Shown here in pieces: positions 26,902-32,100 of a stretch of DNA of 64,000 nt. The notes below the pieces were generated by a model. The model was given only the letters and a program-made list of their open reading frames with translations, ran no database searches and was not told the origin of the DNA. Location of the stretch: assembly GCA_016212665.1 (NCBI GenBank), contig JACREZ010000027.1:1-64000 (forward strand), read 5' to 3'. The stretch is from Ignavibacteriota bacterium (GTDB lineage Bacteria > Bacteroidota > Ignavibacteria > UBA10030 > SZUA-254). Within the stretch, counting starts at the first letter, position 1, and each line of letters begins with the position of its first letter. Position numbers and translations under genes: made by a program.

Positions 26902-28038
26902 ATGTCTTGGAAATCAATCATAGGGCAAGAGCGGGTAAAGAATCAACTGACGACGATTCTTGAACAGAACCGCCTCGCGCACGCGTATCTTTTCACAGGT
27001 CCCGATGGAGTCGGTAAAGATGCAACTGCGATTGAACTTGCAAAAATAGTCAATTGTGAAAAGCAAAAAGCAAAGGCGTGTGACAAGTGTTCGAGTTGTC
27101 TTCAGGTGATTTCTCTCCAGCATCCAAACCTCCATTTGATATTTTCTTTGCCTGTCGGAAAAGGTGAAACATCGGAAGATTCGCCGATTGAAAAACTTTC
27201 GAACGATGACATTCAGGCGATTCAGGAACAGATTGAATTAAAAAGTAAAAATCTGTATTACGACATAGTTGTTGCAAAAGCGAACAACATCAAAGTGAAC
27301 AGCATCCGCGAAATGCGAAGACAATCGTCCATGTCAACGCTGACGAATGGGAAGAAAGTATTCATCATTCTTGATGCAGAAAATCTGAGGGAAGAATCTG
27401 CAAACGCGATGTTGAAGACGCTTGAAGAACCACAGTCGAACACGCTTATCATTCTCACCTCATCCCACAGCGACCAACTGAAAGCGACCATTGTTTCGCG
27501 CTGTCAGTTGGTAAAGTTTGATTATTTATCGGAAGACGAAATAAAATCGGCATTAGTCGAAAACAAAGAGATGAAAGAAGTAGAGGCAGAGAGTGTTGCC
27601 CGTATGGCGAACGGAAGTTATGCCCGCGCACTTGAGTTGCTTGAAAGTGATTTCCTTGAGATGCGAAAATTGGCTGTTGATATTCTTCGCACGATGTTGT
27701 ATCGTTCGAAGGAAGATTTGTTCAAACTGATTGAGCAGATTACTTCGCAGTACGAGCGTTCGGATGTCGAGCGATTATTCGGGTTGATGCAATCGTGGTT
27801 GCGCGATTCGATGTCGCTACAATCCGGGAACGAGCGTATCGTTAACGTGGATGATGAAGCGGCAATCAAAAAATTTTCAGCCGTACACTCGAACGTTCAA
27901 TACGGAAAAGTCTTCGAATCGCTTGAAAAATCGGTTTCCCTTCTGAACAAAAATGTGTATATTCCGCTCGTTATGTTGAATCTGACGGCTGATTTACAAC
28001 AGCACATTCTCAAACCAAATCTCAAACCCCGAAACTAA
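26902..28038 (+). CDS. holB: DNA polymerase III delta-prime subunit
   Basis: A clamp-loader subunit of 378 aa. Walker A is in HAYLFTGPDGVGKDATAIEL. The zinc-module cysteines are in CDKCSSC with a preceding CEK. NAMLKTLEEPQSNTLIILTSS carries sensor 1, and the SRC motif is in TIVSRCQLVKF. The first residues (SWKSIIGQERVKNQL) are typical. The last ten residues (LKPNLKPRN) are encoded by the AAACC-word repeat, which also contains the stop codon. Confidence 0.9.
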   Translation: MSWKSIIGQERVKNQLTTILEQNRLAHAYLFTGPDGVGKDATAIELAKIVNCEKQKAKACDKCSSCLQVISLQHPNLHLIFSLPVGKGETSEDSPIEKLSNDDIQAIQEQIELKSKNLYYDIVVAKANNIKVNSIREMRRQSSMSTLTNGKKVFIILDAENLREESANAMLKTLEEPQSNTLIILTSSHSDQLKATIVSRCQLVKFDYLSEDEIKSALVENKEMKEVEAESVARMANGSYARALELLESDFLEMRKLAVDILRTMLYRSKEDLFKLIEQITSQYERSDVERLFGLMQSWLRDSMSLQSGNERIVNVDDEAAIKKFSAVHSNVQYGKVFESLEKSVSLLNKNVYIPLVMLNLTADLQQHILKPNLKPRN

Positions 28039-30196: not shown

Positions 30197-30457
30197 ATGG
30201 ATATACTTTGGGACGAGGAGAAAAATCGAAAACTTAAAGAAACTCGCGGAATTGCTTTTGAAGAAATATCTCAGATAATACTCGATGGTAATTATCTCGC
30301 TATTCTCGAAAACCCTTCCCGACCAGAGCAAATGATTTTTGTGTTACCTTACAAAGGATACACACATGTTGTTCCATTCATTGTTGATAATGATGAGAAT
30401 ATCGTTTTAAAAACTGTATTTCCAAGTAGGAAATTCCATAAAATGTATGCAAAGTAA
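30197..30457 (+). CDS. BrnT-like toxin of a type II toxin-antitoxin pair
   Basis: A compact protein of 86 aa. ILWDEEKNRKLKETRGIAFEEI resembles the start of BrnT/DUF497 toxins (WDExKNxxNxxKHGxxFEEA), and the tail IVLKTVFPSRKFHKMY resembles their RxISARxxxxxEr end in position. BrnT is a ribosome-independent RNase. A CopG/BrnA-like gene overlaps or directly follows its stop codon, supporting a TA pair. TATGTTTG at about 30158-30165 may be a -7 element, without a clear TTG partner. The family call is moderate. Confidence 0.6.
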   Translation: MDILWDEEKNRKLKETRGIAFEEISQIILDGNYLAILENPSRPEQMIFVLPYKGYTHVVPFIVDNDENIVLKTVFPSRKFHKMYAK

Positions 30458-30761
30458 AACCATGAAAACTAAACTTGATTCTTTAGAAAGACAAATTGAA
30501 AACTCTGCGGATGAATTTCGCCCATTATCGGAAAAGAAGCAGCGAAGAGTAGAAACTATTATTCGGCACGCTCGGAAAAGCAGAAGTGTAAGTATTCGGA
30601 TTGCCGAAAGCATACTTGAAGAACTCAAACGACGTTCGGCACGAGAAGGACTTCCTTATCAAACATTAATTGCAAGCATTTTGCATAAATATGTAACAGA
30701 CCAATTAGTTGATGAGACGATAATACGAAAATCATTGAAATACATTTCTACACCTCAATAA
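30447..30761 (+). CDS. CopG/BrnA-like antitoxin
   Basis: A 104 aa protein. RSVSIRIAESILEELKRRSAREGLPYQTLIASILHKYV is the ribbon-helix-helix pattern of CopG/BrnA-type antitoxins, in which the RHH domain binds the operon operator. The N-terminal half is charged and helical. ATG 30447 overlaps the toxin stop; ATG 30462 is an alternative giving 99 aa. Confidence 0.75.
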   Translation: MQSKTMKTKLDSLERQIENSADEFRPLSEKKQRRVETIIRHARKSRSVSIRIAESILEELKRRSAREGLPYQTLIASILHKYVTDQLVDETIIRKSLKYISTPQ

Positions 30762-30777: not shown

Positions 30778-30905
30778 AGATGGAGGCTGTCCGAATAGTC
30801 CTTCATCATTCGACATTCATTGTTCGACATTTGATATTTGAGTAAATAACTAATATCGAATGACGAATTCTGAACTCCGAACTACTTTTTGGACAACCAC
30901 CATCT
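30778..30905. repeat. Imperfect long inverted repeat between convergent genes
   Basis: AGATGGAGGCTGTCC (30778-30792) is matched by GGACAACCACCATCT (30891-30905), 13 of 15 paired. Similarity continues inward through ATTCG/CGAAT words (ATTCGACATTCATTG, AATGACGAATTC). It can form a long imperfect hairpin between the antitoxin (+) and DinB (-) genes. It could be a MITE-like element or a two-way terminator. Confidence 0.65.
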
Positions 30906-31382: not shown

Positions 31383-31418
31383 TGTTTTTACTCCTACGGT
31401 TTATCTGGTACGCGCAAT

Positions 31419-31445
31419 CTGGGAGGCAGTTGTACTGCCGACCCC
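31419..31445 (+). repeat. Partial copy of the RAYT-associated palindrome
   Basis: 26 nt, CTGGGAGGCAGTTGTACTGC followed by CGACCC, are identical to the first part of the full element at 32044. It contains the hairpin GGCAG-TTGTA-CTGCC. It lies 10 nt beyond the 3' end of the transposase gene. Confidence 0.85.
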
Positions 31446-31454
31446 GCTTTATGA

Positions 31455-32000
31455 TTAATGTAAACATTCAACATGAAAAACAGTATTATCGTTATGAACA
31501 TAATTTCGTGCGCTGGAATAAACCCAATGTTCAGGTTGATCAACATATCCTTTTCTCACCGGATTGTCATGGAGGTATTTCAACTTTTCCTGAAACATAA
31601 ATCCGTCTTCAACAAGAATAGGGTGGTTGCCGTCAATCCAAACTTTATGCTCATTGCCACGTTCTTCTAAAAGAGCCGCTTGCTGAAATATCATGAGCGT
31701 TGAGGTGCGATGATCTTCCTGAAGCGTTTCAATAATCTTTCCCGCTGTGAAGCGTTTGAAATCTCTCATCGTATCGGAGAGCCGATGAGTGAGGGAGCCG
31801 GCAGCAATCAGATGAATATGATTCGGCATTATGACATAACCGGCAACACGCAGTTCCTTCTTCTCCTGGCAGTGTTTCAGACTTTGAATCAATATTTCAA
31901 AATATTTGTGAGAGAGAAAGATTGCCGTCCAGTCAACTATTGTTGCAGTGAGAAAGTAGAATTCAGTTTCTTTTTCTTCAATTATTTTCCAATGAGACAT
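31455..32000 (-). CDS. REP-associated tyrosine transposase (RAYT), Y1/IS200-like
   Basis: A single-copy HUH/Y1 transposase of 181 aa. The metal-binding HUH motif is visible as MPNHIHLIAAG. The N-terminus WKIIEEKETEFYFLTATIVDW and the C-terminal LKYLHDNPVRKGYVDQPEHWVYSSARNY are diagnostic of the RAYT branch. RAYTs move or multiply short palindromic REP sequences in place of complete insertion sequences. The gene is flanked on both sides by copies of a palindrome (31419 and 32044), as expected for a REPtron. It appears intact. Confidence 0.92.
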   Translation of the reverse strand: MSHWKIIEEKETEFYFLTATIVDWTAIFLSHKYFEILIQSLKHCQEKKELRVAGYVIMPNHIHLIAAGSLTHRLSDTMRDFKRFTAGKIIETLQEDHRTSTLMIFQQAALLEERGNEHKVWIDGNHPILVEDGFMFQEKLKYLHDNPVRKGYVDQPEHWVYSSARNYVHNDNTVFHVECLH

Positions 32001-32043
32001 GGTTTTTATGTGTTAGTTCGGAATGTAATTCTAATTTCTATTT

Positions 32044-32100
32044 CTGGGAGGCAGTTGTACTGCCGACCCGACTGTGGTCGGGAGTGCAACTCCCTCCCAG
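32044..32100 (+). repeat. Full REP-like multi-hairpin palindrome
   Basis: A 57-nt element closed by CTGGGA (32044-32049) / TCCCAG (32095-32100). Inside are hairpins GGCAG/CTGCC (32050-32064) and CCCGAC/GTCGGG (32067-32082), and a third GGGAGT/ACTCCC (32080-32094) that overlaps the second by three bases. It lies 44 nt upstream of the RAYT start codon (minus strand). Confidence 0.88.

Follow-up and report, generated by a model that had tools for sequence, protein, structure and literature searches.

Where a RAYT gene lies between copies of a palindrome, the question is whether gene and repeat form one system and, if so, which structure in the repeat the enzyme would act on. Such a locus is present in the window analysed here, a stretch of 64,000 nucleotides of an Ignavibacteriota genome (contig JACREZ010000027.1, positions 1 to 64,000). 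The partnership of a RAYT gene with a cognate REP repeat is a known kind of system, and we consider it very probable that the locus is a REPtron, in which a transposase gene of the IS200/IS605 kind (HUH, Y1) has been domesticated and is accompanied by its cognate REP units, the RAYT presumably acting on the unit hairpin and cleaving at it. In window coordinates, the features are:

31419..31443, + strand, lone REP unit past the RAYT stop codon, foot away from the gene (covariance model R1, 41.6 bits, E 2.0e-6)
31455..32000, - strand, RAYT / TnpA-REP gene, 181 aa, predicted HUH single-strand DNA endonuclease (NF047646, 102.7 bits; AF2 and Foldseek)
31575..31577, - strand, putative catalytic Tyr142 (YLHDNP), invariant in 25 homologues
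31812..31820, - strand, HUH motif codons H61-I62-H63, both histidines invariant in 25 homologues
32044..32068, + strand, doublet REP unit 1, stem GGCAGT/ACTGCC (R1, 41.6 bits, E 2.0e-6)
32050..32064, + strand, unit 1 hairpin, 6 bp, loop TGT (stem covariation, 47 distinct units)
32069..32075, no strand, doublet spacer CGACTGT, 7 nt, variable in sequence among doublets
32076..32100, - strand, doublet REP unit 2, inverted, stem GGGAGT/ACTCCC (R1, 42.9 bits, E 9.4e-7)
32080..32094, - strand, unit 2 hairpin, 6 bp, loop TGC (stem covariation, 47 distinct units)

The palindrome and its copy

A first-pass annotation had described a RAYT gene bracketed by a 57-nt palindrome, closed by CTGGGA/TCCCAG, and by a truncated copy of it in the same orientation. 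The palindrome is indeed present at 32044-32100, upstream of RAYT, with 26-nt arms that are 88% complementary, and the gene between the copies exceeds the family cut-off of 80 bits. The same-orientation copy stands as well, 27 nt of the palindrome being repeated identically at 31418-31444; it is not truncated, however, since positions 31419-31443, which lie 11 nt past the RAYT stop codon and match the opening 25 nt of the palindrome exactly, make up one complete unit. Palindrome and copy are beyond chance, because the first 21 nt of the palindrome found 3 matches at up to 3 mismatches in the window against 0.00 expected, and its fold reaches -21.7 kcal/mol compared with -8.0 for shuffled sequences (z -6.5). 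Rfam returned no match between window positions 28000 and 36000.

Two other elements of the window lie nearby. A 118-nt repeat with inverted ends of the GGTTGTCC.../...GGACAACC type (30783-30900) is MITE-like, unrelated to the REP unit, and has eight further copies in the source genome at 84-95% identity. A toxin-antitoxin gene pair, BrnT-like and BrnA/CopG-like, occupies positions 30197-30761; its BrnT member scores below the Pfam cut-off.

The enzyme

The protein matches NF047646 and also Y1_Tnp, and all 25 aligned homologues match the RAYT family at E<=0.001. Across these homologues H61, H63, Y142, N146 and P147 are invariant, so that both the HUH motif and the Y-x-x-x-NP motif are in place. 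The AF2 model (pLDDT 93.3) has as its first-ranked Foldseek match E. coli TnpA-REP with a REP hairpin (4er8; E 1.4e-8, TM 0.67/0.73 for the predicted model), ahead of the IS200/IS605 enzymes. Sequence similarity to the E. coli protein is marginal, with 15% identity in the structural alignment. The assignment as RAYT within a REPtron, already made in the first-pass annotation, is thus borne out by the family score, the HUH and tyrosine motifs and the best structural match, together with the copies elsewhere and the subclade linkage described below.

The source genome carries four more RAYT/Y1 genes on other contigs, each with a different palindrome nearby: GTAGTAGC units near the gene, one of them within it (L035), GTGCGACTCACTT repeats flanking the gene on both sides (L036), AGATGGAGTCCACTT near the gene (L037) and CCCCGAAGGGGTGACA repeats near the gene (L038).

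The REP unit

At the RAYT locus the unit is 25 nt long and reads CTGGGA, a 6-bp hairpin with loop TNN, and GACC. Among 104 units from the source genome and its relatives, the consensus is 25-26 nt, CT-GG-GA-[GGNAGT-TNN(N)-ACTNCC]-GA-CC, occurring singly or as an inverted doublet; conservation spans CT to ACC, and the flanks are near random. The first loop base is T in 104/104 units. Canonical GTAG REPs have a 5' GT[AG]G foot; the foot here is CTGG, its first base being C in 90 and its second T in 102 of the 104.

Compensatory changes support the 6-bp hairpin of each unit. In 47 distinct units 99.6% of stem cells are paired, and two-sided changes occur at 5/6 pairs, 39 of them in all as compared with 5.7 in shuffles. 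Stem covariation is 0.482 (0.143 when shuffled), and sliding the partner abolishes the signal, leaving this register the best by far. As the units had been gathered with a stem requirement, the test was repeated with a free spacer: a tag-to-tail search found 4 further Watson-Crick pairs in 59/75 distinct sequences from repeat-bearing genomes, against 0/29 elsewhere. The foot GG and tail CC may pair additionally, A-T replacing G-C in 6 units (5 from one genome) and T-A in 1.

Doublet or cloverleaf

The 57-nt palindrome is two inverted 25-nt REP units with a 7-nt spacer, a REPIN-like doublet, and in the predicted fold of single-stranded DNA the two arms form one long hairpin. It reads CTGGGAG GCAGT TGT ACTGC CGACC / CGACTGT / GGTCG GGAGT GCA ACTCC CTCCCAG. 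Between its arms a C-G pair is exchanged for G-C, which leaves the hairpin of each arm intact and spoils the long palindrome. A preference for unlike arms, that is, for different stem types within a doublet, is not significant (P 0.05-0.11, depending on the null model).

The same stretch had been proposed in the first-pass annotation to be a branched, cloverleaf-like REP and, as such, the substrate of the enzyme. Its hairpins are there, including two that overlap each other: besides those at 32050-32064 and 32080-32094, a third, CCCGAC/GTCGGG at about 32067-32082, overlaps the second. It is also possible to draw the 57 nt as a four-way cloverleaf in which every junction base is paired. The branched form is nonetheless disfavoured, because at -13.8 kcal/mol it is 9 kcal/mol weaker than the single long hairpin (-22.8 kcal/mol) and because single units exist, one of them beside RAYT. 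It is the predicted fold in 0/20 doublets tested, and the third hairpin requires the spacer of the RAYT-locus doublet, a sequence that varies between copies. What covariation backs is the 6-bp hairpin of each unit, which is also found alone, and we regard a cloverleaf substrate as extremely improbable.

Copies in the genome and its relatives

Exact matching missed decayed copies, and units were therefore counted with the covariance model R1 at E <= 0.01. By this count the source genome holds 12 units, several of them decayed, spread over 8 loci if the RAYT locus is taken as one; among 60 genomes searched with R1, units occur in 14 other genomes, with 1-37 in each and the maximum of 37 in G012. 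Classical REP families have about a hundred copies or more, a number that neither the source genome nor its relatives approach. The units are mostly intergenic, only 12/94 sites lying inside a frame open over 400 nt, compared with 63% of window positions. Where units lie in close pairs, the feet mostly point outward and the tails inward, and the spacers measure 6-41 nt. A genome-wide count and a search for intergenic pairs had been suggested as checks on the palindrome, and both turned out as anticipated: further copies exist, mostly intergenic and often as inverted doublets.

The geometry of the pairs raises the question of what moves. The mobile element could be RAYT with its outward-facing flanking units, the doublets being internally deleted, MITE-like derivatives. 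Inverted, feet-outward units bracket RAYT genes in several genomes (G012 C28 and C35; G055 C81; G011 C156), arranged just as in doublets. In addition, a RAYT remnant, FFLSATIVEWTPIFLSQKYF, adjoins a doublet on contig C33 of the source genome, and G012 has a truncated second RAYT copy. However, the RAYT copies within a genome are not recent transpositions, because they have diverged (78% in G012, 58% in G011). Most doublets, moreover, have a short spacer and no RAYT remnant, and neither a target duplication nor an empty site was seen. We found no insertion polymorphism at the one orthologous site compared, where G014 has an apparent decayed unit, and no clean empty site, in place of a G009 doublet; around the RAYT locus itself, neighbouring gene order is not conserved in relatives. 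On balance, we think this explanation somewhat unlikely.

A little less likely still is that the units survive as relics from a REP population of long ago and are no longer mobilised, RAYT being retained for another role on single-strand DNA. Copies in the source genome are few and partly degraded, and in G009 units persist without any RAYT homologue. Yet the units adjoining RAYT are near consensus, in the source genome as at other loci of its subclade, and the 37 units of G012 include alternating arrays. At two contig ends of G012 (L127, L134), alternating REP units recur every 117 nt beside RAYT, a BIME-like array that runs up to the contig breaks. G009, a genome 99% complete, has 10 well-kept units (L158-L162, L228-L231).

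Linkage of the repeat to a RAYT subclade

The repeat class is specific to one RAYT subclade. R1 matches lie at 7/7 loci of the subclade and at 0/27 other RAYT loci; among 245 genomes of the class, units occur in 6/6 with a subclade RAYT and in 7/239 others. These counts overstate independence, since part of the training set of R1 came from units next to these RAYTs and the genomes are relatives of one another: 5 of the 6 genomes with a subclade RAYT served model building. The distant genome G134 was used in neither model, and its sole unit lies 13 nt after its RAYT. In the tree, the seven subclade RAYTs fall within one supported group of 12 rows, which does not demonstrate a single clade. The expected link between copies and RAYT-bearing genomes is accordingly present, with G009 as a counter-example. 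Across several families the repeat goes with a single RAYT subclade, which suggests joint evolution of enzyme and hairpin.

RAYTs further removed have different hairpins on their flanks. In neighbouring subclades (L201, L202, L039) the flanking hairpins differ and have a similar upper stem-loop, for example TCCGACAGTTGTACTGTCGGA and CTGGAGTAGAACTCCAG.

The linkage also bears on whether the palindromes serve the host, for instance in terminating transcription or stabilising mRNA, and flank RAYT by coincidence. They are intergenic and fold well, as host elements of that kind would; their absence beside the 27 other RAYTs, in a class that follows the subclade, argues the other way, and neither copy at the locus has a terminator-like site of a hairpin followed by a T run. 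A terminator role was rejected on this last ground, and coincidental flanking as a whole strikes us as very unlikely.

Proposed mechanism

The REPtron reading thus rests on a RAYT gene flanked by recurring, mostly extragenic REP hairpins of a class specific to it. Against it stand the copy number, low for a REP, the decayed copies, the lack of any insertion polymorphism at the one orthologous site compared, the foot other than GT[AG]G and the units of G009 without a RAYT homologue. The enzymes of E. coli, S. maltophilia and Marinomonas (PMC8266576) suggest how this RAYT would work: by analogy with them it would bind a unit hairpin in single-stranded DNA and cut at a CT close by, for which the CT conserved where the unit starts on its 5' side is the candidate. 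Most likely the enzyme would take hold of the short hairpin of one unit, recognise the foot and the first loop base, an invariant T, and cleave near the CT that forms the 5' edge of the foot, by way of a 5'-phosphotyrosine on Tyr142. Joining of the cut end elsewhere could then spread units into intergenic sites at a low rate.

More tentatively, the unit might represent a separate class of REP with a distinct code in foot and tail, in which CTGG replaces GT[AG]G, the GA...GA step around the stem possibly forms tandem G-A pairs and GG/CC may be paired, the whole being read by a RAYT subclade with changed guide recognition. If this were so, cut sites would be predictable from the foot, and the system would be unlike those studied. 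To our knowledge, cut-site choice by RAYTs has been studied in only a few GTAG systems, and a clean further case is offered by this compact RAYT, whose 25-nt unit is well bounded, covaries and has a foot of another kind.

Comparison with known systems

Because its foot is CTGG and not GT[AG]G, we regard the locus as a REPtron variant that resembles TnpAY1 subclass 2.6 (Bertels group 5), for which the published motif description gives NH[LIV]H, WQ and YIH[QN]NP in proteins of about 179 aa with atypical repeats (Quentin et al. 2018, PMC6006769). Measured against that description, NHIH fits NH[LIV]H, YLHDNP fits Y-x-H-x-NP, the length of 181 aa is close, and in both the flanking secondary structures lack GT[AG]G and recur in the genome; by contrast, WI stands here for WQ and the tyrosine motif deviates at two positions. 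With the GTAG-1 REPs of Pseudomonas and relatives (for example P. fluorescens SBW25 GTGGGAGGGGGCTTGCCCCCGAT, PMC2817692; PMC3733652) the unit shares a tetranucleotide, an unpaired GA, a short perfect stem, a small loop, a GA-containing tail and the occurrence in doublets, whereas it differs in its CTGG, its tail GACC, its few copies and its RAYT group. REPINs (Bertels and Rainey 2011, PMC3116915) likewise pair REP units in inverted orientation across a short spacer, can form a long hairpin, and are RAYT-linked and extragenic; here the copy number is low and the arms are often of differing stem type, a trend that is not significant. Finally, E. coli TnpA-REP with its REP hairpin (4er8; Corneloup et al. 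2021, PMC8266576) is alike in fold, in the HUH and tyrosine motifs, in a footed hairpin and in a CT near the foot, although the two proteins share 15% identity and the unit described here has neither the long bulged stem nor the GTAG foot.
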